From: Actinomyces dentalis DSM 19115
GTDB taxonomy: Bacteria; Actinomycetota; Actinomycetes; Actinomycetales; Actinomycetaceae
Length of the DNA: 64,000 bases
Assembly: GCF_000429225.1 (NCBI RefSeq)
Contig: NZ_AUBL01000016.1
Coordinates: 1-64,000, forward strand
Direction of reading: 5' to 3'
Shown: positions 17,430-64,000 of the stretch, in pieces
Numbering within the stretch: position 1 is the stretch's first letter
Layout of the letters: every line of letters begins with the position of its first letter
Program-made: the position numbers and the translations under genes
Notes under the pieces: model-generated
Databases searched by the model: none
Told to the model about the DNA's origin: nothing
What the model saw: the letters and a program-made list of their open reading frames with translations, nothing else

Positions 17430-17891
17430 TCACTTCTCGCAGGCGATCCCGTCGTGGTCGCGGTCCAGTTCGGCGCGGTAGCCGGATTCGCCCAGGTACA
17501 GCGGGGCCGCGCCCGCGGCGCGGGCCTCCTTGCAGTTCGCGTAGTACACGCCGCTCGACCCGCCGCCCGACTGCTCCTGAGTCTGATCCGACTCGGTCTG
17601 ATCCGACTCGATCTGGTCCGACTCGGGCTGGTCCTGAGCCTGCTGCTGATCCTGTTCCTCCCCCGCCTCCTCCGCGGCGGCCGTGGCGGAGGCCGAGTCC
17701 GTGGTCGGGGTGTCTTCAGCGAGAGAGTCATCGCACCCGGCGAGGGCCGGGGTCAGGGCGAGGACCAGGGCGACGAGGCAGCCGCCGGCGGACAGCGCCC
17801 TGCGGCGCGGGCGCAACGGGGCGGACTGCGGCGAAGGGCCGGACTGCGGCGGAACGGGGCGAGAACAGGCGCAACGGGACATGATCGGCAC
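17430..17891 (-). CDS. Excalibur-domain lipoprotein
   Basis: About 153 residues. GTG 17891 was chosen because AAGGA lies seven bases upstream and the same context is conserved in the paralogue at 19062; ATG 17882 is the alternative. An Arg-rich n-region (RPRRRALSAGG) and hydrophobic core end in LAGC, a lipobox. Then comes a Glu/Gln/Asp/Ser-rich linker with ESDQ repeats (residues 75-110), and a C-terminal Excalibur calcium-binding-like domain with YYANCKEARAAGAAP and LDRDHDGIACEK. Cell-surface location is expected. It is a partial duplicate of the next gene; the leader DNA of the two is nearly identical. Confidence 0.82.
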   Translation of the reverse strand: MPIMSRCACSRPVPPQSGPSPQSAPLRPRRRALSAGGCLVALVLALTPALAGCDDSLAEDTPTTDSASATAAAEEAGEEQDQQQAQDQPESDQIESDQTESDQTQEQSGGGSSGVYYANCKEARAAGAAPLYLGESGYRAELDRDHDGIACEK

Positions 17892-17934
17892 GATGGGATC
17901 CTTAAAGGGGTGGGGAGTGTGCAGAACCTCCTCA

Positions 17935-17962
17935 GGTATACGCGCGCCCACCACGGGTACAA
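17935..17962 (-). promoter_or_regulatory. Promoter of the first Excalibur gene
   Basis: On the minus strand TTGTAC (17962-17957), a 16-base spacer, then TATACC (17940-17935), about 45 bases before the start codon. The arrangement and spacer are kept in the duplicated leader of the second gene (TTGCTC-16-TATACC), which supports function. Confidence 0.6.
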
Positions 17963-18138
17963 GCCCCTCGACCGCCTTTGCAACCATACGGTGACCTACC
18001 GCCTCGCACCCGGCGGCGAAGACACCGCGGCCCCGGGGTCGCTCAGTACGCCGTTGAACGCGGGTCGGCGCCCCGCGTCCGAAACGTCGTGCGCGCCCGA
18101 CGCGTCATTCCGCACCAGGCGCGCACGACGGCGACGGC

Positions 18139-19062
18139 TCACTTCCACTCGCAGGCGATCCCGTCGTTGTCGCGGTCCAGCTTCTCGCGGTAGCCGGGCT
18201 CGCCCCGGTAGATCGGGGCCGCCCCCGCGGCCCGCGCCTCGGAGCAGTTCTTGTAGAACGTTCCGCTCGACCCGCCCGACTGCTCCTGGGACGAGTCCTG
18301 CTCGGGCTGCCCCTGCTTCCACTCGCAGGCGATCCCGTCGTCATCGCGGTCCAGCCCGGCGCGGTAGCCGGGGTCGCCCCGATGCAGCGGGGCCGCCCCC
18401 GCGGCCCACGCATCCGCGCAGTTCGCGTAGTACGTCCCGCTCGACCCGTCCGACTGCTCCTGAGTCTGATCCGGCTCGGTCTGGACCGGCTGCTGCGTCT
18501 GTTGCTGGGTCTGCTCCGCGGCGCGGGCCGCTTCCTGCCGGGCCTGCTCCGCCGCGGCCGCGGACGCCGACGCCTCGGCGGCGGCCGCGGCGGAGGCCGA
18601 TGCCCTGGCCGAGGCCGCCGCCTTGGCGGAGTCGTGGTTGACGGTCAGGGTGATCGCCTGACCCGCCGGAACCTGGGCGCCGGCCGCCGGCTCCTGGGCG
18701 GTGACGGACCAGTTGCCCGGTTCCCACACGGACTCCTTGCCGTCGACGTCCGTATAACTCGGCGCCTGAGTGAGCCCGGCCGTCTTGAGGGCCTCGGCCG
18801 CGGCGTCACCCTTCATGCCGACGACATCGGGAACCGCGACGAGGACCTGCTGCTGGACCGTGGCGGCCCTCGTGGGCGAAGTGCCCTGCGCGGTGGCCTC
18901 ACCGCACCCGGCGAGGGCCGGGGTCAGGGCGAGGACCAGGGCGACGAGACAGCCGCCGGCGGACAGCGCCCTGCGGCGCGGGCGCAACGGGGCGGACTGC
19001 GGCGAAGGGCCGGACTGCGGCGCAGCAGGGCGGGGACAGGCGCAACGGGACATGATCGGCAC
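18139..19062 (-). CDS. PASTA plus double-Excalibur lipoprotein
   Basis: 307 residues from GTG 19062 (AAGGA seven bases before). The signal and lipobox (LAGC) are nearly the same as in the neighbouring gene. Then a PASTA-like domain (residues about 70-145: VAVPDVVGMKGDAAAEALKT, then AGAQVPAGQAITLTV), an Ala/Ser and Gln-rich stalk (150-215), and two Excalibur domains in tandem (CADAWAAGAAP...DRDDDGIACEWK and CSEARAAGAAP...DRDNDGIACEWK). PASTA domains bind muropeptides or beta-lactams in kinases and PBPs, so a wall-associated role is plausible. The two Excalibur units differ at few positions, showing recent internal duplication. Confidence 0.85.
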   Translation of the reverse strand: MPIMSRCACPRPAAPQSGPSPQSAPLRPRRRALSAGGCLVALVLALTPALAGCGEATAQGTSPTRAATVQQQVLVAVPDVVGMKGDAAAEALKTAGLTQAPSYTDVDGKESVWEPGNWSVTAQEPAAGAQVPAGQAITLTVNHDSAKAAASARASASAAAAAEASASAAAAEQARQEAARAAEQTQQQTQQPVQTEPDQTQEQSDGSSGTYYANCADAWAAGAAPLHRGDPGYRAGLDRDDDGIACEWKQGQPEQDSSQEQSGGSSGTFYKNCSEARAAGAAPIYRGEPGYREKLDRDNDGIACEWK

Positions 19063-28609: not shown

Positions 28610-28816
28610 ATGCCGACGACGCAGATGGACGGCCTCGTCCGCACATTCACCGAGGATGAACTCCTGGAGCGGAGATCAGAGGTCGTCAAGAAGTTGGAGC
28701 GCCGCTTCGGCAGCCTGGAGCGCGCGCTCGAACGCGAGCAGGATTGGAACTATGACGAGGAGGAGAGCATGCTCTTCTCTGAATACCACGCCGTCACCTT
28801 CCTGCTCTTCAAATGA
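28610..28816 (+). CDS. Conserved small acidic helical protein, first of a two-gene unit
   Basis: 68 residues, GGAGG nine bases before the ATG. Almost entirely charged helix: TEDELLERRSEVVKKLERRF then LERALEREQDWNYDEEES, ending EYHAVTFLLFK. I recall similar short proteins paired with a larger gene like the next one in other actinobacteria, but without a known function. Its stop overlaps the start of the 248-residue protein (AAATGATG), so both are co-translated. The size, charge and coupling would fit an antitoxin or cofactor. The DNA is more A+T-rich than the surroundings. Confidence 0.6.
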   Translation: MPTTQMDGLVRTFTEDELLERRSEVVKKLERRFGSLERALEREQDWNYDEEESMLFSEYHAVTFLLFK

Positions 28817-29559
28817 TGAGCACATTGTCGCAGCAGGTCCGAGAGGCTCGTGAATTCGCAGATCAAACGACCCGGACGATTCGCACCGTGTGCGAGTCGG
28901 CACCCGACTGCATAGTCGATGAAAGCACCAAAGGAAATGTTTGGAGGGCGACAATCGCACCTCCTAACAATAAACCTGCACCCTTGACGATCAACGGCGC
29001 ACAAATCCTCAAACTGCTGGTCAATTATGAGTGCACCTCATCCCCCCGCCACTCGCACATGCTCATCGAGACATCACGGTTCATTCTCCTTCCGAAGGAT
29101 GCGAATGAGCCTCTCATGCGAATGGAATACATGCGGCATCCGAGATCGAGCGTTCCCAGTTTTCACATGCACATGCATGCACATCGGGACGCTTGGACAT
29201 TCACTATGTGCCGCGACGGCGTCGGCAGTAGTCGGAAAAAAGTTTATCAACGCGGAAGCACGAAGCGAGTCCCACAGCTTTCCGACATCCATATCCCGGT
29301 CGGTGGGCCGCGCCTGCGACCGGCCCTCGAAGACCTCCTTGAGATGCTTATACACGATCTTGGCGTTGACCACGCCGATGACGCACTCAAAGTACTTGAA
29401 GAGCAGCGTGTCCGCTGGCGCATCACGCAAGTGCAGGCGATTGCAAAATCAATGCCGAACATCGTAGCGGACGCTCTTCGCGACGAAGGGTATAAGGTCA
29501 TCTCACCTGCTGATTCCGAACCGACGAACCAGCCGCCTCCTTGGGTCCACCGTTATTGA
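28813..29559 (+). CDS. Uncharacterised 248-residue protein with HMHMHAHRD motif
   Basis: No function known to me. Residues 1-60 are mixed helical, 61-110 contain beta-type segments (SHMLIETSRFILLP, EPLMRMEYMRHP), residues 118-126 read HMHMHAHRD, and VPQLSDIHIPVGGPRLRPAL follows at about 153, then LEDLLEMLIHDLGVD. The spaced histidines, an acidic residue and the later DIHIP could form a metal or nuclease-like site. ATG overlaps the small gene's stop; a second ATG is three bases later. A+T-rich codon use (for example AAA, TTT, ACA) compared with neighbours suggests transfer. Candidate toxin-antitoxin or defence unit by layout only. Confidence 0.6.
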   Translation: MMSTLSQQVREAREFADQTTRTIRTVCESAPDCIVDESTKGNVWRATIAPPNNKPAPLTINGAQILKLLVNYECTSSPRHSHMLIETSRFILLPKDANEPLMRMEYMRHPRSSVPSFHMHMHAHRDAWTFTMCRDGVGSSRKKVYQRGSTKRVPQLSDIHIPVGGPRLRPALEDLLEMLIHDLGVDHADDALKVLEEQRVRWRITQVQAIAKSMPNIVADALRDEGYKVISPADSEPTNQPPPWVHRY

Positions 29560-52273: not shown

Positions 52274-53053
52274 TCACGCCGGGTCGGGAACCGCCGCGAA
52301 GGCCTCGCGCCCCTCGCTCAGTCCGCTCCACCGGGACAGTGGCCACACGATCTGCTTGGCGACCCCGATGACGTCATCGATGGGCACGAAGCCGCCGTGG
52401 GCGTCGTCCTGGTGGTAGCGCGAGTCGGAGGAGTTGGAGCGGTTGTCCCCCATGACCCAGACGAAGCCCCGGGGCACGACGACGTCGAAGGCCATCTCGG
52501 AGGCGGAGCGGCCCGGTTTGAGATACGTCTCGTTCACGGGGACCCCGTTGACGGTGAGGGAGCCCCGGCCGTCGGCGACGATGTGGTCCCCGGCCACGCC
52601 GATGACCCGCTTGATGAGGTGGTGGCCGGGGTTGGCGGGCAGGATCCTCAGGGCGACCAGGGCGTCCTGGATGATCTTGTGCAGGCCGGTCGGCTCGGTG
52701 ACGGTCAGCCAGTTGTCCGGGTCGTTGAAGACGACGATGTCCCCGCGCCTGATCTCGTCGACGTCGTACATGGTCACGGCCACGCGGTCGCCCTCGGCGA
52801 GGGTGTCCTCCATCGAGCTCGACGGGATGACGAAGGTCTGGACGACCGTGCTGCGTATGACGATGACGATGACCAGGACCAGGAGGAAGGCGCCGAGGTT
52901 GCCGATCAGCGGGTGCAGGCGCCGGCGGCGAGCGGGCTCCGCGGCGTCGCCGGTCGCGCCCTCGGCGGGCTCGGGGGGCGGGACGGCGCCGTTGTCCGCC
53001 CGGTGTCTCGCGGCGGTGCTCCTGCGGGCGTCCGTGGGGGACTCAGTGCTCAC
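52274..53053 (-). CDS. lepB: Signal peptidase I (second copy)
   Basis: 259 residues, normal architecture. About 45 polar residues precede a membrane segment (AFLLVLVIVIVIRSTVVQTF). Catalytic IPSSSMEDTLAEGDRVAVTM follows, then HHLIKRVIGVAGDHIVADGR with the lysine, and GDNRSNSSDSRYHQDDAHGG. Large parts are nearly identical in DNA to the corresponding part of the other lepB (for example 52372-52470 against 49456-49550), pointing to recent duplication or gene conversion. ATG overlaps the 3' end of trmD by about ten bases. Confidence 0.95.
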   Translation of the reverse strand: MSTESPTDARRSTAARHRADNGAVPPPEPAEGATGDAAEPARRRRLHPLIGNLGAFLLVLVIVIVIRSTVVQTFVIPSSSMEDTLAEGDRVAVTMYDVDEIRRGDIVVFNDPDNWLTVTEPTGLHKIIQDALVALRILPANPGHHLIKRVIGVAGDHIVADGRGSLTVNGVPVNETYLKPGRSASEMAFDVVVPRGFVWVMGDNRSNSSDSRYHQDDAHGGFVPIDDVIGVAKQIVWPLSRWSGLSEGREAFAAVPDPA

Positions 53054-54533
53054 CGGCGGCCTCCTGGGGGTTGAGGACCATGACGATATCGCGGCAGGTG
53101 CGCCCGCCGACGTCGTAGGTGCGCGATCCCGCCCCGGCGAAGCCGGAGCGCCGGTAGGCCCTCCGGGCGCGGCGGTTGGCGTCGTTCGTGCCCAGCCACA
53201 GGGCGGTCACGCCCCGGGCGGCGGCGTCGCGCACGGCCTCGGCCAGCAGGGCGGCGGCCGTGCCGGAGCCGCGCAGGCGCGCGTCGACGTAGACCTTGGA
53301 CAGTTCGGCGGCCAGTCCGGCCCCGCCGTCGGGGGCGGCCGGGACCCTCACGCCGTCGGGGCGGGGATCCAGGCCGGGGGGCGGCGCACCGCCGTCGCCG
53401 GGCTCGATGAGCACGGCGCTGTAGCCGATGAGCTCGCCGGATGCGACCCGTCCGCCCCGGGTCGCGGTGTCCCGGCCGAGCGCGGCGACCGTCAGGACGA
53501 CGCGGGGGTCGGCCAGCCAGTCGGCGAAGCGCGCGGGGGTCAGGTGGGCGGCCACGTGCTCGGCGATCTGCTCGGCCGTGAGGAGGGGCGGGCAGGCGTC
53601 CGGGAAGGTGCGCGCGGCCAGGTCCGCCAGCTCCGCCAGGTCGGCCGCGGCGGCGGGGCGGACCACCAGCTCGACGGGGCCCGCGGCGCCGGCGGGCACG
53701 GCCCACCCGCCCCGGGCCAGGGCGGCCCGGTCGGCGGCGTCGAGGTCGTCGGGGCGCAGGCGCGCGATCATGTCGGGGCGGCGCGCGATGGTGCGGGCGA
53801 TGGCCCGGTCGCGGCGCAGGCGGGCGATGCGGGCGTGGTCGCCGCTGAGCAGCTCCGGCCGGGCGCGGGACACGTCCAGGCCGCGCCAGGCGACGGGGCG
53901 CGTGTAGACCTCCTGCTCCAGCAGGCCGGACGCGCCGTGGGACTCCTCGACGACGGAGTCGGGGTTGCCCAGCACGCCCGGGCGCAGGCGCGCGATCGCC
54001 TCGATCATGACCAGGGCGGCGGCCTCGCCGCCGCTGAGGACGTAGTCGCCTATGGACAGCTCGGCCACCTCCACGCCGGCGGCCCGGTAGTGCTCGGCGA
54101 CCCGGGCGTCGATGCCCTCGTAGCGCCCGCAGGCGAAGACGATGTGGTCGGCGCGGGCCAGGTCCTCGGCGGTGCGCTGGGTGAAGACCCCGCCGGAGGG
54201 CGTGGGCACGACCAGGACCCGGCGTCCGCGGGCCGCGGCGGATTCGCGGGCGGCGGCCGCGTCGGCGGGCAGGGAGAGAACCTCGTCGAGCGCCTCGCCC
54301 CACACGTCCGGCTTCATCACCATGCCGGCGCCCCCGCCCAGCGGGGTGTCGTCGACGGTGCGGTGGCGGTCGCGGGTCCAGCCGCGCAGGTCGTGCACGC
54401 GCAGGTCGATGAGCCCCTCCCCCGCCGCCCGGCCGATGAGGGACAGGTCCAGGGCCCGCAGGTAGTCGGGGAAGATGGTGATCACGTCCAGCCGCAGGGG
54501 CGCGCCGACGGCGTCGGGGGCGGCGGCGCTCAC
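53043..54533 (-). CDS. trmD: tRNA (guanine-37-N1)-methyltransferase TrmD fused to a GNAT acetyltransferase
   Basis: Residues 1-265 are TrmD: LDVITIFPDYLRALDLSLIG, TVDDTPLGGGAGMVMKPDV, FACGRYEGIDARV and ELSIGDYVLSGGEAAALVMI with the knotted SAM site. Residues 285-490 continue in the same frame as a GNAT domain: ELVVRPAAAADLAELADLAA, then VDARLRGSGTAAALLAEAVR with the acetyl-CoA loop and WLGTNDANRRARRAYRRSGF at the end. The link is a short Ala/Gly stretch, with no stop or start signal between. TrmD alone is about 230-260 residues. The acetyltransferase substrate is unknown. The start overlaps the rimM stop. Confidence 0.92.
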   Translation of the reverse strand: MSAAAPDAVGAPLRLDVITIFPDYLRALDLSLIGRAAGEGLIDLRVHDLRGWTRDRHRTVDDTPLGGGAGMVMKPDVWGEALDEVLSLPADAAAARESAAARGRRVLVVPTPSGGVFTQRTAEDLARADHIVFACGRYEGIDARVAEHYRAAGVEVAELSIGDYVLSGGEAAALVMIEAIARLRPGVLGNPDSVVEESHGASGLLEQEVYTRPVAWRGLDVSRARPELLSGDHARIARLRRDRAIARTIARRPDMIARLRPDDLDAADRAALARGGWAVPAGAAGPVELVVRPAAAADLAELADLAARTFPDACPPLLTAEQIAEHVAAHLTPARFADWLADPRVVLTVAALGRDTATRGGRVASGELIGYSAVLIEPGDGGAPPPGLDPRPDGVRVPAAPDGGAGLAAELSKVYVDARLRGSGTAAALLAEAVRDAAARGVTALWLGTNDANRRARRAYRRSGFAGAGSRTYDVGGRTCRDIVMVLNPQEAAGEH

Positions 54534-55072
54534 GGCAGGGCCCCCTCGGCCGCGCCGAGCCCCGGGAAGAGCCCGCCGGGCGGATCGAGGGTGACGGTGC
54601 CGGCCTCGACGTCGACCTCGGGGACGAGGGCGGCGACGAAGGGCACGGCCACGTCCCGGCCGGAGCCGGTGCGCACGACGATGCGGTCCTGGGCGACCCC
54701 CCGCTCCAGGTCGACCACCTCGCCGAGGGTCTCGGCGGCGCCGTCGGGCAGCCGCCGCACGGCCCGCAGGCCGATGAGCTCATGGGCGTACCAGGCGTCG
54801 TCCTCGGCGTCCTCGTCGTCGGTCTCCACCAGCAGGCGAACCCCGCGCAGGGCCTCGGCGGCGGTGCGGTCGCCGGCCTCGGCGAAGACGGCGAACCAGC
54901 GGGAGCCGTCGAAGCGCAGGCGGGTCACGGTCAGGGGCCCGGCGTCGGCCGGAGCGGTGGGCAGGGCGGTGCCCGGGGCCAGACGGCCCTCGGGGTCGTC
55001 GGTGCGGATATCGAGGCGGACCTCGCCCTTGAGGGCGCGGGCGGAGCCGATGACGGCGACGGTCAGGAGCAC
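54530..55072 (-). CDS. rimM: 16S rRNA processing protein RimM
   Basis: Assists 30S maturation near S19. 180 residues: TVAVIGSARALKGEVRLDIR at the start (typical xGxxGxRGxVxV pattern), FAEAGDRTAAEALRGVRLLV in the middle and a PRC barrel with WYAHELIGLRAV, then VPFVAALVPEVDVEAGTVTL. The start is GTG at 55072. 149 bases downstream of the KH gene, coupled to trmD. Confidence 0.94.
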   Translation of the reverse strand: MLLTVAVIGSARALKGEVRLDIRTDDPEGRLAPGTALPTAPADAGPLTVTRLRFDGSRWFAVFAEAGDRTAAEALRGVRLLVETDDEDAEDDAWYAHELIGLRAVRRLPDGAAETLGEVVDLERGVAQDRIVVRTGSGRDVAVPFVAALVPEVDVEAGTVTLDPPGGLFPGLGAAEGALP

Positions 55073-55221
55073 GGGCCCAAACCTACCGCGTGGTCGCGCC
55101 GTCGCCGGGCCCGGGACGCGTGCGCTGCCCCACCCGGGCCGGTCCTCCTCGGACGCGGCGCCGCCCGACCCCGGGAGGGGCCGGGCGGCGCGGTCCGGTA
55201 CGGGTTCGTCGGCGGGGCGCG

Positions 55222-55458
55222 TCAGCGCCGGTCGGTGTCGACGACGTCGACGCGCACCGGCGCGTCGGCCAGGGCCCCGACGACCGTGCGCAGGGCGCGG
55301 GCGGTGCGGCCCGAGCGGCCGATGACGCGGCCCAGGTCCTCGGGGTTGACCCGCACCTCCAGCAGGTCGCCGCGGCGCAGCGACCGGGAGGTGACGGTGA
55401 CGTCGTCGGGGTGGTCGACGATGCCCCGCACGAGGTGCTCGAGCGCGTCGGCCAGCAT
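55222..55458 (-). CDS. khpA: KH-domain RNA-binding protein (KhpA type)
   Basis: 78 residues with one KH domain: VRGIVDHPDDVTV, then LEVRVNPEDLGRVIGRSGRT containing the GxxG loop (GRSG), and ARALRTVVGALAD. Such proteins bind small RNAs and mRNAs, in some species together with KhpB in cell-wall control. It lies one base after the rpsP stop, the conserved order rpsP-khpA-rimM-trmD. Confidence 0.94.
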   Translation of the reverse strand: MLADALEHLVRGIVDHPDDVTVTSRSLRRGDLLEVRVNPEDLGRVIGRSGRTARALRTVVGALADAPVRVDVVDTDRR

Positions 55459-55459
55459 G

Positions 55460-55915
55460 TCAGGCCTCCTCGGCGGGGGCCTCGCCGCCCTCGGCGGCCG
55501 GGGCCTCGGCGGCCTCGGCGGCCTCCTTGTCCGCCGCGGCCTTGGCGGCGGCGGCCTTGTGCTTCTCGGCGTCGTCGGCGGCGGCCCTGACGGCGGCCTC
55601 CTTGAGCGCCGCGGCGGCCTGCTCGTCCTTGACCTTCAGCTTGCCCTCCGGGATCGGCAGCCCCTTGAAGGCGTGGTAGTCGCCGGTGATCTTGAGCAGG
55701 TTGAACACGGTGTTGGAGGGCTGGGCGCCGACTCCGAGCCAGTACTGCGCGCGCTCGGAGTCGATGCGGATGAGCGAGGGCTCCTGCATCGGGTCGTACA
55801 CGCCGATCTCCTCGATGACACGGCCGTCGCGCTTCTTGCGCCCGTCGACGACGACGACGCGGTAGAAGGGCGCGAACTTCTTGCCCATGCGCTTGAGGCG
55901 AATCTTGACTGCCAC
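55460..55915 (-). CDS. rpsP: 30S ribosomal protein S16
   Basis: [40 protein letters not shown] and [20 protein letters not shown] identify S16. GTG 55915 is preceded by AGGAG at nine bases. Residues beyond about 100 are a 50-residue Ala/Glu/Lys-rich tail, so the length is 151 versus 80-140 usually. It starts the rpsP-khpA-rimM-trmD-lepB-rplS run. In most actinobacteria ffh lies just upstream; here 7.6 kb of accessory genes separate them. Confidence 0.95.
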
Positions 55916-56267
55916 TTGGTTGAACTCCTGGTTCTGGATGGTTTGGCGCGCGCCGGCCCCCGGTGAGGGGCGAAGCAGCGGTTTCCGGCGTGAGCCGAGA
56001 CGCGGGCGGAGGAGGGAGAGGGGCCTGCCGCCGCCTGAGTACAGCCGGTCATTGTGCCAGAGCCCCGTGCGGGCCCGCCAGCGTTGACGGGGCGCTGCGG
56101 CGCCGCGGCGCTGCGAGATCGCCCACAGCCCCGCCCCGCCCTCCCCTCGCCGAGGTCGGCGGAGAAGTCGCGCGGGACCGGCGGGAAGCGCTGCGGATGC
56201 GAATGATCCGGGGTCGGCGCCGGAACGGGTCTGGACGCGGCGGGCGGGTCGGGCGGAGGCTAGGAGT
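55916..56267. other. Divergent spacer upstream of rpsP
   Basis: 352 bases without a gene. On the minus strand a -10-like CACAAT near 56051-56056 could serve rpsP, but the -35 element is unclear. Repeat family C copy 3 lies at about 56150-56205, next to the promoter-proximal side of the plus-strand gene. Confidence 0.45.
56150..56205. repeat. Dispersed repeat family C, copy 3
   Basis: GAGGTCGGCGGAGAAGTCGC then GCGGGACCGGCGGGAAGCGC, followed by TGCGGATGCGAATGAT. It corresponds unit by unit to 20941-20990. Extragenic. Confidence 0.5.
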
Positions 56268-57821
56268 GTGAAGCGTCTCTTCCCCGGCATCCGTCCCCCC
56301 GGCGCGCCGACCTCCATCCGCCCGCCGACGTCGACCTCCATCCGCCCGCCGAAGCAGGGCTCCTACACGAGTCCGCCTCGGCCGGGGCGCGTACGGCGCT
56401 CCGACCGCAGCAGAACTCCCGGCCAGCGCCGCCCCCGCGCGTCCCGCACGCCCCGCACGCCCCGCGGATCGCGCGGCTCGGGCGTCGCCGTGGTCGTCCT
56501 GGTCCTGATCGTCGCGGTGCTGGTCGCAGCGCTGCCCGACCTCGTCGAGGACCTGTCGCGCCCCCGGGTCGCCGTCGGCCCGACCTTCCCGGCCCGCACC
56601 ATCGCGGCCCGGCGCACGCCGTCGCCGTCGCCCACCCCGTCCGATCGGCCCGCGTACGCGGGCTCCTGGCAGGAGGCCTGGAGCCTGGACGACCCGGTCC
56701 TGGTCGGCACGAGCACCAGCCGCCGCGAGGCGCTCCTGTACGCCTGGGGCGACTACTTCGTCGTGGCCCACCGGCTCGGCAGCGGCTCCGACTCCCGCGC
56801 CAGCGTGACGGGGTACCGGCTCGGGGCCGCCGACCCGGAGCGGGCCTGGACCATCACCATGGACGGATTCACCGAGCATCCCAAGGAGAGCACGCCCTGG
56901 GGCTCCAAGCTCATCATGGGAGGGAAGCTGGTCGACGTTGCCACGGGGGAGGCGTCCGACGCGCCCTGGGAGCGGGCCTCCCCGAGGCTCGTCTTCAACA
57001 ACCTCGCGATCGTGTGCGCCGGCTCGGGCGACTGGTGCGCCGGGTGGGACTGGAACGACGGCGACCCGGTTGAGAGATGGCGGCGGGGATCCATGGAGAG
57101 GAACTGGTACTTCCCGACGGCGCGGGTCGTCGGCGACGACGCCACGGGCCACGTCCGGATCGAGGAGCGCCCCAGGAGCAGGAGATCCGGTTCGTCGACA
57201 TCCGGCCCGTCGGCATCCGGCTTCCTCTCCCTGGCCGACGGCTCCATCCACAATTCCTCCAATTCCTCCTCCTCGAAGACCGATCAGACGACCTACATCC
57301 CCGCCGCGGACGGCTGGCTCCGCCGGTCCAAGAACGCATCGGGCTTCGAGATGCTCAGTCCCGACGGCACCCCCGCGGGCGCCGTCAAACCGGCGACGAC
57401 GGACGACGAGTACCTCGTCCTCCTGTCGCCGACGGGGCCGCCGACCCTGGACGAGTACCGCCGCGCCTACGAGCTGGGCGACACCGGCTGGGCGACGACG
57501 GCCCTGACCTCATCGCGCGACGGGAGGTCGAGGCCGCAGCTCCTCAACGGCCGGCCCCTGGCGAACAGGACCCCCTCCACCCCGCGCGTGCCCACCGTCT
57601 TCGAGGACAACCGCGCGCTCCTGAGCCCGGACGGGCGCACCCTGCTCGTGACGCGGAGTTCCCCCGACATCCCGGTCGTCGCCGTCGATCTGACGACGAG
57701 CACCGCCACCGACCTGCCCCCCGAGGTCACCGACGGCGACCACGTCAGGGTCACCATCCGCGCGGACCTCATCATCGCCGTCGTCGGCACGAGGATCGTG
57801 GGCTACGCCCCGACCGGGTGA
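56268..57821 (+). CDS. Membrane-anchored extracellular protein of unknown function
   Basis: 517 residues from GTG 56268 (GGAGGCTAGGAGT upstream). Residues 1-70 are a basic Pro/Arg/Ser cytoplasmic tail with an IRPP motif three times. There is one membrane segment at 72-92 ([19 protein letters not shown]), then a Ser/Pro linker. The outer part (from about 130) has repeated WG/YxxWGD-type strands ([61 protein letters not shown]), which suggests a beta-propeller such as in PQQ- or WD-type sensors. No catalytic motif seen. It begins the accessory block between rpsP and ffh. Confidence 0.6.
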
Positions 57822-57845
57822 CCGGCGGGCCGGGAGGCGCCTGAC

Positions 57846-57872
57846 ACCTGTCATACGGAAGCGGTGACGGGT
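57846..57872. promoter_or_regulatory. Inverted-repeat operator before the ABC-transporter operon
   Basis: ACCTGTCA and TGACGGGT (the reverse complement of ACCCGTCA) form a dyad with 11 bases between, centred about 55 bases before the ATP-binding-protein start. A plausible site for the LuxR-type regulator at the operon's 3' end. Confidence 0.5.
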
Positions 57873-57912
57873 CTCAGTACCGGGCCTCGGCGGGCGGGCC
57901 GATCCTTGAGCC

Positions 57913-58887
57913 ATGAGCACCACAGCACCGGCCCCCCTCCCCGTCAGGGCCCGCCCCGCCAGGACCCCCGCCGTCGAGGTCAGGGGCCTGACCAAGACCT
58001 TCGGCCCCGTCACCGCCGTCGACCGCCTCGACCTCACGGTGGCCTCCGGCGAGGTCGTCGCCTTCCTCGGCCCCAACGGGGCCGGCAAGTCCACGACCCT
58101 CGACGTCCTCCTCGGCTTCACCCGGCCCGACGCCGGCACCGCCGCCGTCCTGGGCGTCGAGCCCCGGGAGGCGGTGCGGGCCGGGCGCGTGGGCGCGGTC
58201 CTCCAGTCCGGGGGGATCCTGCCCTCCTACACGGTCCGCCAGACCCTCGACATCATCGCCTCCCTCCAGCTGCGCGCCCCCGACGTCGAGGCCATCATCG
58301 ACCAGACCGACCTGCGCGGAATCCTGCGGCGGCGGGTCGCCCGCTGCTCCGGCGGGGAGGTCCAGCGCATCCGCCTGGCGATGGCCCTGATGGCCCAGCC
58401 CGAGCTGCTGATCCTGGACGAGCCGACCACCGGCCTGGACCCCAACGCCCGCGCCGCCTTCTGGGCCACCATGCGCGCCCAGACGGCGGCGGGCCGCTCC
58501 ATCCTCTTCGCCACCCACTACCTGCAGGAGGCCGCCGACTTCGCCGACCGCATCGTCATCATCGACCGCGGCCGCCTGGTCGCCTCCGGCTCGGTGGACG
58601 AGGTGCGCGCCATGGGCGAGGGCACCACGGTGAGCGCGACCTGGCCGGGGCTGAGCGGCCAGGCCCGGCTGCGCGCGGCCCTGGCCCCCGTGTCCGACTC
58701 CCTGCTGGCGGTGGAGGTCCACGGCGAGCACCTGGAGGTGCGCACCACCGCCCCCGACGACGTCGCCCGCCTCCTGCTGACCACCACCCCGGCCGCCCAC
58801 CTGGGCATCGCGGCGCTCAGCCTGGAGGAGATCTTCGCCGAGCTCGTCGGCGAGGAGCACGACGGCGCCCCCGCCCGCGCCGCCTGA
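57913..58887 (+). CDS. ABC-2 exporter ATP-binding protein
   Basis: 324 residues. Walker A GPNGAGKSTTLDVLLG (near residue 56), Q-loop GAVLQSGGILPSYTVRQTLD, signature CSGGEVQRIRLAMALMAQP (C-SGGE in place of LSGGQ), Walker B LLILDEPTTGLDPNARAAFW and H-loop FATHYLQEAADFADR. The first 20 residues are Pro/Ala-rich. It belongs with the permease 87 bases downstream and the kinase/regulator pair after it, the arrangement of antibiotic- or lipid-responsive exporters. Confidence 0.92.
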   Translation: MSTTAPAPLPVRARPARTPAVEVRGLTKTFGPVTAVDRLDLTVASGEVVAFLGPNGAGKSTTLDVLLGFTRPDAGTAAVLGVEPREAVRAGRVGAVLQSGGILPSYTVRQTLDIIASLQLRAPDVEAIIDQTDLRGILRRRVARCSGGEVQRIRLAMALMAQPELLILDEPTTGLDPNARAAFWATMRAQTAAGRSILFATHYLQEAADFADRIVIIDRGRLVASGSVDEVRAMGEGTTVSATWPGLSGQARLRAALAPVSDSLLAVEVHGEHLEVRTTAPDDVARLLLTTTPAAHLGIAALSLEEIFAELVGEEHDGAPARAA

Positions 58888-58974
58888 GCCGGCCGCTCCC
58901 CCGGCCGCCCCCCGCCCGCCGGACCGCCGGCCCGGCGCCCCCGTCCACCCGTCACCAGAATCGAGGAACCAGCC

Positions 58975-59907
58975 ATGACCACCGCCGCCTTCGCCGCTCG
59001 CGGCAATGCCCGCCCCACCCGGACCGCACGCCCCGCTCCCGCGGCCCGTCCCGCCGGCGACCCCGGGCGCCCCGCTCCCGCGGCCCGCCCCGCCGGCGAC
59101 CGCAGCCGCACCGCCCCGGCCGGGCGCCGCCCGCGCCCGTGGGTCTACACGCGCATCGACGCCCTGACCACCCTGATCCGCCCCGACATGCTCTTCTTCA
59201 CCCTCATCATGCCGCTGGGCATGTACTTGTTCTGGGGCGCCATGCAGGACTTCTCCGCCCACGACGCCGGCCGGGGCAACGTCGCCTCCACGATCATGAT
59301 CAATATGTCGGTCTTCTCCGTGGCCATCGCCGCCACCTGCACGGCCGCCGGCGCCGCCGTCGAGCAGGCCGGCGGGTGGGGCCGCCAGATGGCGCTCACG
59401 GCGGGCGGCCTGCGCGCCTACGTCACCACCAAGCTGCTGACCGCCCTCATCGTCTCGGTCTTCCCGGTCACCGTCATCTTCATCGCCGGGGCCCTCACGG
59501 GCGCGCAGATGGACGCGCCCTGGGTGTGGGCCACCAGCTACGCCCTGGCCCTGCTGACCGCCGTCCCCTTCGCCTGCTACGGCCTGGCCATGGGGCTGTG
59601 GATCCCGGCGCAGGCGGCGGTCGGCATCGCGGGCGCCTCGATCAGCATCTTCGCCTTCCTCGGCAACCTGTTCATGCCGCTGAGCGGGAGCCTGTTCGAC
59701 TTCGCCCACTTCACCCCCATGTACGGGGTCGGCAACCTGGCCCTGCGCGCCCTCCAGGGCGACGCCGTGGCCACCATGAGCGCCACCGGCGAGAACAGGA
59801 TCGTCCACGAGGCCCTGTGGCTGCCCCTCACTAGTATCGCCGTGTGGACTCTCATCTTCGTCATCGCGTGCCTGGCCGCCCGGCGCCGGACGACGGCGCG
59901 GCACTGA
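58975..59907 (+). CDS. ABC-2 type permease
   Basis: 310 residues. The first 55 are a Pro/Ala/Arg linker with a duplicated PAPAARPAGD unit. About six hydrophobic segments follow from residue 78 (MLFFTLIMPLGMYLFWGAMQ) to the end (TSIAVWTLIFVIACLAA), with a conserved-looking AFLGNLFMPLSGSLFDFAHF near 240 that resembles the ABC-2 core. Works with the ATPase encoded before it. Exported substrate unknown. Confidence 0.88.
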   Translation: MTTAAFAARGNARPTRTARPAPAARPAGDPGRPAPAARPAGDRSRTAPAGRRPRPWVYTRIDALTTLIRPDMLFFTLIMPLGMYLFWGAMQDFSAHDAGRGNVASTIMINMSVFSVAIAATCTAAGAAVEQAGGWGRQMALTAGGLRAYVTTKLLTALIVSVFPVTVIFIAGALTGAQMDAPWVWATSYALALLTAVPFACYGLAMGLWIPAQAAVGIAGASISIFAFLGNLFMPLSGSLFDFAHFTPMYGVGNLALRALQGDAVATMSATGENRIVHEALWLPLTSIAVWTLIFVIACLAARRRTTARH

Positions 59908-59924
59908 CCGGCGGGGAACCCGAG

Positions 59925-61088
59925 ATGGGCATCATCTCCGCAGGACGCACGGCCGTCACCGCCCCGGTGGCGGCCGACGCCCGTCCCGGCCCCTGGTACC
60001 GGCGGATCGACTGGGCCGCGTCCTTCTGGATCGTCTTCCTCTTCATCCCCCTGGTCTTCCTGATCAGGACCGACATGCCGGGGCCGCTCAAGGCGCTGGG
60101 CATCGTGGGGATCGGCGTCTTCGCCTGCGTCTACATCTGGGCCGTGTCCACCATGGCGATCTGGCTGGAACTGCCGGATGGGGCCGGCGTCCTCGACCAG
60201 CTGCGGCCGGTGGCCGGCAGATTCGCGCTGCTGACGGGCGTCACCGCCGCCTCGGCCCCGGGCCTGAACTGGTGGTACGCGCTGACCTACCTGCCCTACT
60301 TCTGCGCGATCATCCTGTTCGCGACGAGGCTGCGCACCGGCCTGATCCTCTCCGGCTGCCTCACCGCCCTGACCGACCTCGTCGTCTTCGCTCTCGCCCC
60401 GACGACGGACATCAGATGGGCGGCCTTCGGATTCTCCCTGTCCACCGTCATCGTCGCGGTGTCCCGCATCGCGGCCGAGCTCAACGCCCGGCGCGAGGCG
60501 GAGAGGCGCAAGCTCGTCGTCGCCGCCGAGCGCGAGGAGATCGCCCGCAACGTCCACGACATCCTGGGCCATTCCCTGACCGTGCTCACCCTCAAGGCGG
60601 AGGTCGCCCACCGGCTCGTGCGCCGCGACCCCGGGGCCGCCGAGCGCGAGCTCGCCGAGATCGTCGAGATGTCCCGCTCGGCCCTGGCGGACGTGCGCGC
60701 CACCGTCTCCCGCCTGCGCGCCCCGGACCTGGCCGGGCAGATGGAGGCCTCCCGCACGGCCTTCGCCGCCGCCGACGTCGCCGCCGAGTTCTCGGGGCGG
60801 GCCTCCGACATCCCCCTGCCCCAGCGCGAACTGCTCGCCTGGGCCCTGCGGGAGGGGACGACGAACATCCTGCGGCACGCCGGGGCCGCCCGCGTCCGCG
60901 TGGACCTGACCCCCGGGCGGGTGCGCGTCCAGGACGACGGCGCGGGCGTCGTCGGGCGCCGCCTGGGCAACGGGCTGAGCGGCCTGCGCGAGCGCGTCGA
61001 GGCCGTGGGCGGCGCCCTCATCCTGACCAGTCCCGCCCCGGACGGCACCGACGCGCGCCCGGGCACCATCCTGGAGGTCACCCTGTGA
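59925..61088 (+). CDS. Sensor histidine kinase (DesK/LiaS-like)
   Basis: 387 residues from ATG 59925, GGGGA eight bases before; the frame also covers the permease end. Membrane part: about six hydrophobic segments, residues 30-180. The HisKA_3 motif AEREEIARNVHDILGHSLTV (near residue 200) holds the phospho-histidine, and the ATPase domain has ALREGTTNILRHAGAARV and VQDDGAGVVGRRLGNGLSGL. It overlaps the regulator start (GTGA) and lies 17 bases after the permease stop. Likely senses membrane stress or a transported compound. Confidence 0.92.
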   Translation: MGIISAGRTAVTAPVAADARPGPWYRRIDWAASFWIVFLFIPLVFLIRTDMPGPLKALGIVGIGVFACVYIWAVSTMAIWLELPDGAGVLDQLRPVAGRFALLTGVTAASAPGLNWWYALTYLPYFCAIILFATRLRTGLILSGCLTALTDLVVFALAPTTDIRWAAFGFSLSTVIVAVSRIAAELNARREAERRKLVVAAEREEIARNVHDILGHSLTVLTLKAEVAHRLVRRDPGAAERELAEIVEMSRSALADVRATVSRLRAPDLAGQMEASRTAFAAADVAAEFSGRASDIPLPQRELLAWALREGTTNILRHAGAARVRVDLTPGRVRVQDDGAGVVGRRLGNGLSGLRERVEAVGGALILTSPAPDGTDARPGTILEVTL

Positions 61089-61699
61089 GCGCTCCCATCC
61101 GCATCCTCATCGCCGACGACCAGGCCCTCGTCCGGGGGGCCCTGGCCACGCTGCTCGGACTGGAGCCGGACATCGACGTCGTCGCCCAGACGGGCAGCGG
61201 ACGGGCGGTGGCGGCCCTGGCCCGGGAGCACGCCGTCGACGTCGCCCTGCTGGACATCGACATGCCGGACATGGACGGCCTGGCCGCCGCGGCGGCGCTG
61301 ACCGCCTCGGGCGCGGCCTGCCGCAGCCTCATCGTCACGACCTTCGGGCGCCCCGGCTACCTCTCGCGCGCCCTGGAGGCCGGGGCCTCGGGATTCCTGG
61401 TCAAGGACACCCCGCCCCAGGAGCTGGCCGAGGCGATCCGCAAGATCGCGGCGGGGCTGCGCGTCATCGACCCGACCCTCGCCCAGGAGTCGGTGATCGT
61501 GGGGCCCAACCCGCTCACGGACCGGGAGAAGGACGTGCTGCGGCTGGCGGCGCGCGGCGCGGACGCCCGCGATATCGCCGACTGCCTGCACCTGGGCGCC
61601 GGGACGGTGCGCAACTACCTGTCCAGCGCGATCAGCAAGACGCACGCGCGCAACCGCACCGAGGCGGCCCGCACCGCCGAGACCAACGGCTGGCTGTGA
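61085..61699 (+). CDS. LuxR/NarL-family response regulator
   Basis: 204 residues from GTG 61085. Receiver: LIADDQALVRGALATLLG, phosphoacceptor in DVALLDIDMPDMDGLAAA (near 53), IVTTFGRPGYLSRALEAGAS and GFLVKDTPPQ. HTH: NPLTDREKDVLRLAARGADA then LGAGTVRNYLSSAISKTHAR. Partner of the preceding kinase; the exporter operon with its dyad at 57846-57872 is the likely target, giving autogenous control. Confidence 0.95.
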   Translation: MSAPIRILIADDQALVRGALATLLGLEPDIDVVAQTGSGRAVAALAREHAVDVALLDIDMPDMDGLAAAAALTASGAACRSLIVTTFGRPGYLSRALEAGASGFLVKDTPPQELAEAIRKIAAGLRVIDPTLAQESVIVGPNPLTDREKDVLRLAARGADARDIADCLHLGAGTVRNYLSSAISKTHARNRTEAARTAETNGWL

Positions 61700-61712
61700 G
61701 GCGGGGCGGACG

Positions 61713-62300
61713 TCAAATCGCACCGGCCCGTGCGAGTGCGGCCAGGAGATCGGCCTCGAACGCGGCGAAGGACGGGCTGCGCCCACGGGCTTGGGCAAGG
61801 TCCATAACGGCGGAGAAGCGCGCCTGGTGGAGGGTCTCCCTATACGATTCCGTCATCCGTGTCGCGAGGACTCCCTTGGCATCTCTTGGGCGCTCGGGTT
61901 CCCCGTCGAACACCGCGTCGCCACTGACGCCGCCATGCCCTCGAAGCGACTCGATGGCCGCCAAGAACCAAGCCTCGTACTCGCGTACGGCCACCGCGAT
62001 GACCGTGGTTCCTCCGGCTCCGCGGCCAAGGATGCTCGTGATCTGCGCCTGCATCTCACCAGGATCATCGTCGTCGGCATCGAGAAGAACCAGCACTACA
62101 CCATTATCACCAACGCGAATGCGCTGCATTCTGACTGCACCAACCAGCCTCCCATTCAGCATCTGGGTCCTGGGAAGGCGATATGGATGCTCCACATGAA
62201 GGTCGAACACCTCGTGAGCCTCGCAAATTCTTCGAATGAGGATCGGAAGAGCCCTGACTTCTCCGTGGCCCTCAACTACCGCACCCACTCGGACAGTCAT
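61713..62300 (-). CDS. DUF4276 (Toprim-like) protein of a two-gene ATPase module
   Basis: 195 residues. The N-terminus VRVGAVVEGHGEVRALPIL has the Toprim-type glutamate (VEGxxE), and VVLVLLDADDDDPGEM near residue 68 supplies the DxD cluster, the pattern of metal-dependent Toprim nuclease domains. TVIAVAVREYEAWFLAAIES and a helical C-terminus follow. Its ATG lies in the ATGA overlap with the ATPase gene, so both are made together. In OLD and Gabija nucleases the ATPase and Toprim parts are fused; here they are split, as in PARIS-type defence pairs. Codon use is more A+T-rich than in neighbours. Convergent with the regulator gene. Confidence 0.75.
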   Translation of the reverse strand: MTVRVGAVVEGHGEVRALPILIRRICEAHEVFDLHVEHPYRLPRTQMLNGRLVGAVRMQRIRVGDNGVVLVLLDADDDDPGEMQAQITSILGRGAGGTTVIAVAVREYEAWFLAAIESLRGHGGVSGDAVFDGEPERPRDAKGVLATRMTESYRETLHQARFSAVMDLAQARGRSPSFAAFEADLLAALARAGAI

Positions 62301-63478
62301 CGGGATACGGCTTCCTCAGGTTCGGGCTGAAACTGATCGGCTCGCAGCAGCTCGCCCGCGGTGAAGAGCGACTCGTCGAATGCGAACCGGACCGCGGCAT
62401 CGGGATGACCGACCTCGGTCGTCCCCCCGACCGATCGCACAGCGAACAGCTCACCGGGAAGGATCGTAGAAGAATCGAGAAGATCGGGACTGTGAGTCGT
62501 CAGCAGCACCTGACGATGCTCACTGGCGTCTCGGATCGCGTCCAGGAGGACGCCCGCGGCCGCCGGATGGAGCGCGATCTCGGGCTCCTCCACGCCGACG
62601 GGGCTCAGCGCCTCGCCCGTTCCGGCGAACAGCGCCACGAGCACGCCAAGGGCGCGCAGCGTCCCATCACTGACCGCGGAGGCCGGGAACGACCACGGAC
62701 CGACCGACCCCGAGACGTCCTGCTGGAACTCCAGAGTCTCCCACCCGGACACCGCCGACGACCTGACCGACCTGATGCCGGGAACGATCGCACGCAGGTA
62801 CTCCTCGACCCGCCGTTCAGTCTCCGGGCTTGAATGCCGCAACATCTCGAGGACTGAAGCGATATTGGATCCGTCGCGTCGGAGAGGATCTCCGGGGGTC
62901 GGCGCCTGAGGACGCCGCATGGCCTCCGGCGAGGGATTGAACACCTCCATGCCCGCGAGTCCGTCGTAGACGGGTCTGAATTCCTCGAGACCCGACAAGG
63001 CCACGAGAGCCAGACGGTCCACCGCCGTTCGCGGCAGGCGGCTTTCCGAGCTCCGAACGGCACGACCATTCCTCAACTCGTAGAAGTGGTCCTCGCCATC
63101 GGCGCCCTCGGGATCAGAGGAGGATATGCGGCACACCTCTCTCGCCACTCCGATCCCCCCGTCATCGGTCGTCCCGATTCTGACCTCATAAACTCCACTG
63201 AATTTCCCGGAAGAGAATTCCAGGGAGATGGTGAAATCGGTGGGGCTTCCGGCAGATCTGCGTCTTACCCCCGCGATGCCGCCCCGCTCGCTCACGGCCC
63301 TGGAAATATTCTCCTCGAGCGCCTGGCGGATGAACCTCAAAGAGTCCAGGATATTAGACTTGCCCGCCCCGTTCTGACCGACGAATATCGCCAGGGGCCC
63401 GAGCTCCAGATCGCAGGATCCGATACTGCGGTAGTTCTTCAGTCCGAGACGGCGCAGGGAGAAGGTGGCATCGGTCAT
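62297..63478 (-). CDS. AAA-family SMC-like ATPase of the two-gene module
   Basis: 393 residues. RLGLKNYRSIGSCDLELGPL at the start and FVGQNGAGKSNILDSLRFIR (Walker A near residue 36) are typical of RecF/OLD-type ATPases (AAA_21/AAA_15). The central insert holds the coiled or lid region (residues 70-240). VSDGTLRALGVLVALFAGTG is the signature-like stretch, PVGVEEPEIALHPAAAGVLL is Walker B with catalytic Glu, and QVLLTTHSPDLLDSSTI is the switch. No Toprim domain is attached; that role goes to the partner. Little SD sequence precedes the ATG. The pair resembles a phage-defence unit, an inference from architecture. Confidence 0.8.
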   Translation of the reverse strand: MTDATFSLRRLGLKNYRSIGSCDLELGPLAIFVGQNGAGKSNILDSLRFIRQALEENISRAVSERGGIAGVRRRSAGSPTDFTISLEFSSGKFSGVYEVRIGTTDDGGIGVAREVCRISSSDPEGADGEDHFYELRNGRAVRSSESRLPRTAVDRLALVALSGLEEFRPVYDGLAGMEVFNPSPEAMRRPQAPTPGDPLRRDGSNIASVLEMLRHSSPETERRVEEYLRAIVPGIRSVRSSAVSGWETLEFQQDVSGSVGPWSFPASAVSDGTLRALGVLVALFAGTGEALSPVGVEEPEIALHPAAAGVLLDAIRDASEHRQVLLTTHSPDLLDSSTILPGELFAVRSVGGTTEVGHPDAAVRFAFDESLFTAGELLRADQFQPEPEEAVSR

Positions 63479-63549
63479 GGAGCAAGGCTAGACCATGAAA
63501 GGAACCGATCCGACCCGCACGCGGCGGAATCCGGGGCGCGCCGGCGCCC

Positions 63550-64000
63550 CTACAGGCCCAGGTGGCGGCGCAGGTCCTCGGGCAGGGCGTCCACGGCGTC
63601 GGCGACCTCGTCCGCGCTCGGCTGCCCGCCGCGCTCCGCCGCGCTTCGCCCCGGCATGATCCCGTAGCCCTGGGAGGCGTCCTGCCCGCCCAGCCCGAAG
63701 GCCGCGCCCCGCCCCGGCGCGCCCGCCGGGGCGGACGTCTCGGCGCTGCGCCTGGCGGCGGCCTCCTTGGCCTGGCGCGCGGCCTTGGCGGGGTTGCCGC
63801 TGCGACCCTTCCTGCCGCCCCTGCCCCGCTTGCCCTTGGGGGCCTGGCGGGCCCTGGCGCGCTTGCCCGTGCCGGGCAGGGACCCCATGCCGGGCATGGG
63901 CCCGCCCTCCCCGAAGCCGCCGGAGGCCATGGCCTCCATCATCTTCTTGGCGGCCTCGAAGCGGTCGACGAGTTCGTTGACGGCCTGGACGGTGGTGCCC
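63550..64000 (-). CDS. ffh: Signal recognition particle protein Ffh, C-terminal part
   Basis: Only the last 149 codons are in the window; the rest lies beyond its right edge. The visible start GTTVQAVNELVDRFEAAKKM, followed by MEAMASGGFGEG, is the end of the M domain that binds 4.5S RNA and signal sequences. The tail after that (residues rich in Gly, Arg, Lys: KRARARQAPKGKRGRGGRKG) is longer than in most Ffh proteins and ends AVDALPEDLRRHLGL. Ffh delivers nascent membrane proteins to the translocon. Downstream neighbours normally are rpsP and khpA; here an accessory block intervenes. Confidence 0.88.
   Translation of the reverse strand, partial: GTTVQAVNELVDRFEAAKKMMEAMASGGFGEGGPMPGMGSLPGTGKRARARQAPKGKRGRGGRKGRSGNPAKAARQAKEAAARRSAETSAPAGAPGRGAAFGLGGQDASQGYGIMPGRSAAERGGQPSADEVADAVDALPEDLRRHLGL

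Follow-up and report, generated by a model that had tools for sequence, protein, structure and literature searches.

A HEC-01-type pair of an ABC ATPase and a predicted Toprim nuclease beside ffh in Actinomyces dentalis, a candidate phage-defence module

Do two overlapping genes beside ffh in Actinomyces dentalis DSM 19115 form a phage-defence module, and how do they relate to the defence systems already catalogued? A sequence-only reading had proposed that they are such a module, and we followed this up in the window, by which we mean the whole stretch of 64,000 nucleotides that was analysed. The two genes, referred to here as A and B, and their junction are as follows.

62297-63478, minus strand: gene A, a HEC-01A-like ABC/SMC-type ATPase of 393 amino acids (Pfam; PADLOC PDLC04178, 481.4 bits).
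61713-62300, minus strand: gene B, a HEC-01B-like DUF4276 protein of 195 amino acids, predicted to be a Toprim nuclease (Pfam; PADLOC PDLC04196, 210.7 bits; structure model).
62297-62300, minus strand: ATGA overlap of the A stop and the B start (TCAT on the plus strand), read from the sequence.

Both reading frames and the shared ATGA were confirmed, and the overlap suggests that A and B are translationally coupled within one operon; the same 4-base overlap is present at seven of the ten genome_contigs loci in which both ends are readable. The pair lies, as proposed, in the block that separates rpsP (55460-55915) from ffh (ending at 63550), with transporter and two-component genes in between, and on the minus strand A starts 71 bases past the ffh stop. 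No promoter or terminator pattern was found in 61500-63800, the gap between ffh and A has no significant fold (z 0.51), and Rfam gave no match at gathering score in 55000-64000.

The codons of the pair had been described as richer in A+T than those of its neighbours. The GC content is 64.4% for A (GC3 0.751) and 62.1% for B (GC3 0.658), and none of the 46 called window genes of at least 150 amino acids lies below A or B in GC or GC3 (medians 0.762 and 0.96) or in codon score, this comparison set being biased, as low-GC genes, the pair among them, escape the gene caller. An uncalled 248-amino acid frame at 28813-29559 has an even lower GC content (55.2%), and the composition of the pair is unusual in the window rather than unique. 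That frame is part of a second low-GC two-gene unit (28610-29559), in which frames of 68 and 248 amino acids share an ATGA overlap and for which Pfam and PADLOC gave no match up to E 0.01. Two further features of the window are a single 496-amino acid frame at 53043-54533, which joins TrmD (tRNA m1G methyltransferase) to a GNAT acetyltransferase domain at the C-terminal end, and two adjacent predicted lipoproteins at 17430-18987 that share one long signal-peptide stretch at their starts and are likely a local duplication.

Gene A had been read as an OLD/RecF-type ATPase lacking a nuclease, and Pfam is in agreement, with matches to AAA_21 (9.5e-24) and AAA_15 (8.6e-18) and no nuclease family among them; none of the 21 NCBIfam models listed was above its cut-off. 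When a profile of A was compared with PDB chains, Thermus OLD (6p74) ranked first (5.6e-19), followed by PtuA and GajA chains. Foldseek places the A model (pLDDT 88.3) nearest to PtuA of Septu and retron I-A (E 4.8e-14), and VIA places it nearest to Rad50, SMC and PtuA, with Z about 20-22. We assign A to the SMC/Rad50/PtuA group of ABC-type ATPases, and its motifs are located as follows.

63356-63379, minus strand: Walker A motif of A, GQNGAGKS (G34-S41), intact in 24 of 25 A rows.
62660-62671, minus strand: ABC signature-like SDGT of A (residues 270-273), with G272 and T273 in 25 of 25 rows and D271 replaced by Glu in two.
62579-62590, minus strand: Walker B motif of A, EEPE (residues 297-300), in 25 of 25 A rows.

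The Walker A motif is absent from the row used for G048, where A is split by a frameshift. At residue 329, the position of the H-loop histidine, Gln is found in L095-L098 (two Streptomyces plasmids, G090 and G209).

Among the PADLOC models, A is matched best by PDLC04178 (HEC-01A; 5.4e-145, 481 bits, residues 1-389), the best model outside the HEC group giving 116 bits and those for AriA, Old and GajA 84 (3.9e-24), 61 and 47 bits, and B is matched best by PDLC04196 (HEC-01B; 5e-63, 211 bits, residues 1-189). Since these are the best matches of both proteins, the pair is, by its profile matches, a copy of the catalogued candidate defence system HEC-01, and the module is not new. HEC reportedly stands for 'Hma-embedded candidate', a term from a 2024 preprint by Payne et al., and HEC-01 is said to have been found originally through its association with other defence systems, an association that is not required of each copy. 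The correspondence extends to the layout: HEC-01, like the window pair, consists of an ATPase and a DUF4276 protein, the models are matched over nearly the full length, and A and B are adjacent and co-directional, with A directly upstream of B in all 11 genome_contigs loci, which come from several phyla (two of the loci are Actinomyces, and L012 has a frameshift that splits A). The surroundings differ, in that one relative (L009) lies two genes from HmaC and others lie inside restriction-modification operons, whereas the window copy adjoins ffh and is not embedded in another defence system. Several HECs, HEC-06 among them, are reported to have shown antiviral activity (PMC12988326), and the one paper on bacterial defence found to name HEC-01 itself lists it in a genome survey (PMC12724379). 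The literature searched, which did not include the originating HEC preprint, yielded no test of HEC-01 antiviral activity.

What would B do in such a system? DUF4276 (5.6e-12) is the sole Pfam family matched by B up to E 1, and is a family of unknown function that was named nowhere in the literature searched; there was no NCBIfam match. The AlphaFold2 model of B, built from 11 sequences, has a pLDDT of 92.7 and a pTM of 0.89, with strands at residues 3-9 and 68-74; the conserved E10 follows the first of these, and the DxD described below the second. The sequence-only reading hinged on B folding as a Toprim domain, and this is the fold to which the model points, with modest scores. In a Foldseek search of the PDB, the first five ranks are all C-terminal Toprim regions of OLD proteins, the best with E 1.4e-3 and probability 0.99; nothing was found at 1e-3 or better, and the TM-scores of the top five (0.34-0.46) are below 0.5. 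By VIA the best match is 6nk8_B (Z 9.0, 163 residues aligned, 4.2 Å), and 6njw follows with Z 8.5; the PARIS chain 8ux9_A (306 residues, presumably AriB, as chain B of 8ux9 is AriA) has Z 6.6. Piwi MID domains also reach Z 8.5, and with unrelated Rossmann-like folds this close behind OLD the case for a Toprim domain in B rests on the fold and the residues together.

The VEGxxE and DxD motifs ascribed to this 195-residue protein are present as VEGHGE (residues 9-14) and D74-A-D76. A B profile found no sequence match among PDB chains, and when aligned as a profile of 21 rows to 12 OLD-like Toprims, a comparison that the earlier reading had called for, both motifs fell in register (P 0.015), at an hhalign probability of only 2.9%; for 14 other families P ranged from 0.089 to 0.84. 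In Burkholderia (Bp) OLD, as described in PMC6755086, E400, D455 and D457 hold metal A, E404, T506 and E508 hold metal B, and K562 is catalytic. The proposed counterparts in B are listed below, where intact rows are 21 of the 24 B rows, L012 (contig end, frameshift) and L033 and L036 (broken B) being left out.

62259-62273, minus strand: E10-G-H-G-E14 of B, with the Toprim glutamate (E10) and a second acidic residue (E14), both kept in all 21 intact rows (compare Bp OLD E400 and E404).
62073-62081, minus strand: Toprim DxD of B, D74-A-D76, in 24 of 24 rows (compare Bp OLD D455 and D457).
61974-61982, minus strand: E107-Y-E109 of B within VREYEAWFLA, likely metal-B ligands, in 21 of 21 intact rows (compare Bp OLD T506 and E508, paired by chain order only).
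61875-61877, minus strand: K142 of B, likely the catalytic lysine, in 20 of 21 intact rows and Ala in L094 (compare Bp OLD K562, paired by order only).

D77 is likewise invariant in the 24 rows. The order of the two-metal site of Bp OLD is mirrored in B, with E10 and E14 four apart, D74xD76, E107xE109 and K142, and B is probably, judging from its model, a small Toprim protein with an OLD-type two-metal site that serves as an effector nuclease.

Kinship with OLD, PARIS and Gabija had been proposed from the start, and the likeness to these systems stands, while membership of PARIS or Gabija does not. AriB of PARIS belongs to DUF4435, and with DUF4276 as the only Pfam match of B we rejected PARIS as the identity of the pair; a split ABC ATPase with a separate Toprim protein is common to both, as reflected in the VIA match of B to 8ux9_A and the AriA model match on A, but B has 195 amino acids and A scores 481 bits with HEC-01A against 84 with AriA. 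With the OLD proteins and GajA, the pair shares the ATPase superfamily, the Toprim fold predicted in B and the counterparts of the two-metal site, but ATPase and Toprim are two genes in the window rather than one polypeptide, and OLD classes 1-3 and Gabija GajA were rejected on this ground; also at variance with Gabija, there is no UvrD-like helicase among the genes called beside the pair. The PtuA chains of Septu and retron I-A are the nearest solved structures to A by Foldseek, but the partner differs, B being Toprim-like rather than HNH, and Septu was rejected because B has no HNH family among its Pfam, PADLOC or NCBIfam matches. According to PMC12409363, PtuB is an HNH protein, AriA is the ATPase sensor of PARIS and AriB its Toprim two-metal tRNase, and the Toprims of OLD and Gabija cut DNA, that of OLD cutting ssRNA too. 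A review counts PARIS, whose domains are split, as a candidate for class 4 of the OLD proteins (PMC10568477).

The pair is rare and patchy. Of 49 genus genomes, 10 have A and nine have B; at the family level B is found in 8 of 200 genomes, every one an Actinomyces, and at the phylum level in 5 of 396 (the window's genome is counted in each case), so that these are not core genes, which would have told against a defence role. A scan of viral_contigs returned 43 pattern stretches and no relative of the pair. B finds three Streptomyces plasmids, two of which were looked at, and A matched no plasmid at E 1e-40, a threshold that also misses these three. One locus, L094 (MT835995.1), is from a 'Bacteriophage sp.' record from human faeces that carries a HEC-01 pair; its other genes are chromosome-like when their translations are read by eye, and we rejected a phage origin for it, the label looking wrong.

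Within Actinomyces there is one site. The pair adjoins ffh in six genomes, an amidohydrolase-like gene (named by eye) separates the two in G003, G004 and G029, the contig ends at the pair in G018, where the rpsP side matches, and A is alone at the site in G012. The rpsP-ffh interval varies from 0.7 kb in G021 to 8.0 kb in the window and 16.4 kb in G043, and besides the pair contains mainly ABC-transporter, two-component and symporter-like genes, as read by eye, with Pfam used for the window's own genes and clustering before reading for those of pair-less genomes. A C5 DNA methylase in the G048 interval is the sole DNA-modification gene recognised beside the ten genus copies, and no defence island surrounds the pair in the window. 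On its two sides ffh is flanked by modules alike in make-up, each with an ABC ATPase, an ABC-2 permease, a histidine kinase and a response regulator, at 57913-61699 of the window and at 13575-17209 of L032, on the contig beyond the window, and cross-matches of the ffh-flanking modules between G000 and G032 are at about 66-69% in DNA. G016 has two rpsP copies (C1:213547-213915 and 1768678-1769046), one of them far from ffh beside a GntR-ABC set.

The history of the pair appears to differ from that of ffh. When presence of the pair is mapped onto an ffh tree built from 47 genus genomes, at least five changes are needed, and well-supported branches force four of these. AU tests on the ffh tree reject two groupings seen with A, G014/G027/G048 (p-AU 0.0017) and G003/G004/G012/G018/G029 (p-AU 3.7e-5), and the A tree in turn rejects the grouping G003/G004/G014/G029/G048 seen with ffh (p-AU 2.6e-46), these p values being indicative as the groups were named after the trees had been seen. 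On the A tree the ten genus copies do not form one clade and L094 falls among them, but a single clade is not clearly rejected (p-AU 0.055). We infer exchange between species into one site, by way of its conserved flanks, together with loss. One could suppose instead that the pair has a housekeeping role in DNA repair or the chromosome, for which the OLD family offers a precedent in Cran1, an archaeal member with a part in the cell cycle (PMC12796447), and to which the single genus site beside the core gene ffh would lend itself; but a gene pair of this scarcity, with broken copies, low GC and a tree that disagrees with that of ffh, makes such a role most improbable.

Three genus copies are damaged. 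In G032, A is 95% identical and B has an internal deletion; in G048 B is interrupted by a stop and A by a frameshift; and in G012 A is kept and B is not recognisable. Both genes are under purifying selection in unbroken copies, with dN/dS (NG86) of 0.06-0.23 for A and 0.11-0.44 for B, as against 0.57 and 0.54 in comparisons with the broken G048; the residual B of G032 gives 0.37. The module is real, apparently transferred, and selectively kept. The presence of A without a whole B in G032 and G012 is what one would see if A were harmless and B costly, but chance decay explains it equally well. These data also bear on whether the pair might be a selfish, toxin-antitoxin-like element in which B is restrained by A and which is kept by addiction rather than antiviral benefit. 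Small size, translational coupling, patchiness, apparent exchange and the existence of plasmid copies would all suit such an element, and we nonetheless think it quite unlikely, since unbroken copies of both genes are under purifying selection and loss of the effector is tolerated, with A lacking an intact B in G032 and G012 and both genes broken in G048, a tolerance that does not address loss of B first.

The sequence-only reading also expected other defence genes near relatives of the pair, and such genes were recognised near some of them and not at the window locus. Known defence systems are present at five of the 16 loci other than the genus copies (L003, L005-L012 and L094-L100), and in three of the five the pair lies between the methylase and nuclease genes of a restriction system; the Gabija and restriction-modification genes were confirmed by single-gene scans. 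The gene order at these five loci is as follows.

L005, Isoptericola, type I restriction-modification: HsdM, HsdS, AbiD, A, B, further genes, HsdR.
L097, type I restriction-modification: HsdM, A, B, a transposase-like gene (by eye), HsdR in two frames.
L007, Akkermansia, type III restriction-modification: Fic protein (PDC-S24), type III methylase, A, B, type III nuclease in two frames.
L009: HmaC, one gene, A.
L095, Streptomyces plasmid, Gabija: GajA and GajB, separated from B by two small genes.

At the other 11 loci no defence system was recognised in incomplete scans of chosen genes. L006 has a TIR-TPR gene nearby and L003 a SocA-like gene, neither of which PADLOC recognises, and L098 has a gene matching the PADLOC 'subtilase' and IetS models, which was left out of the count. 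Gene calls outside annotated records were made de novo, miss low-GC genes and are poor in L098 and L100. At a threshold of 1e-20, PADLOC matched 141 families from 111 neighbour proteins pooled over 11 loci (all except L008, L009, L012, L094 and L100, one L009 gene being scanned separately) against 3 from 133 proteins in 10 control regions, a contrast rather than a gene count, inflated by overlapping and generic models. Among the 25 of the 141 families that were listed, some are generic, as with a TAP-like peptidase at L003 and a kinase at L097 (PD-T4-6 models), and the control matches are to mad3 (three proteins), one type IIG model and one type I model. The controls are 10 of 19 regions, with none from G090 (short contigs) and without L128 and the first L112 protein.

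These neighbours bear on what the pair might be directed against. Wadjet acts against plasmids, and a pair with the same ATPase-nuclease logic could target plasmids or other mobile DNA in place of phages, in which case the SMC/Rad50-like head of A would be in keeping and the Streptomyces plasmid copies might be a weapon between mobile elements. We regard this as unlikely, in view of the recognised neighbours, which are restriction, Gabija and Hma genes and mostly read as anti-phage, and of the 393 amino acids of A, which would be too short for a long SMC coiled coil. A different idea, by analogy with PARIS, which answers Ocr, is that HEC-01 is a guard of restriction systems, in which A would detect restriction complexes that have been disarmed, or the anti-restriction proteins of phages, and would free B in response; this would explain the position of the pair between methylase and restriction-nuclease genes in bacteria as unlike as those of L005, L097 and L007, but we hold it to be rather improbable.

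The reading we prefer, and consider likely, is that the pair is a HEC-01-type candidate in which A is the ATPase sensor and restraint and B is a Toprim effector nuclease activated on infection so as to block phage growth. A would assemble into an oligomer acting as both sensor and restraint, and would sense a trigger that arises at infection or on entry of foreign DNA, for which a phage protein, DNA ends and a changed state of the DNA are candidates. Binding or hydrolysis of ATP by A would then activate or release B, presumably within a complex of the two, and B would cut nucleic acid, either tRNA, the target in PARIS, or DNA, the target of OLD and Gabija, with the block to phage growth as the outcome. 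The original proposal of a candidate phage-defence module is thus supported, with HEC-01 as the best PADLOC match of both proteins, a Toprim fold predicted for B and genes that are not core, the antiviral activity being a prediction.

The recognition of DUF4276 as a putative OLD-type Toprim with counterparts of the two-metal site gives an otherwise opaque catalogued candidate a testable effector and named residues, and natural variants can be compared at the ffh-side site in Actinomyces, where the copies of sister species may be whole, half or broken. HEC-01 would be a second split type of OLD protein beside PARIS, and if the proposal is true, split ATPase-Toprim immunity would be broader than PARIS.
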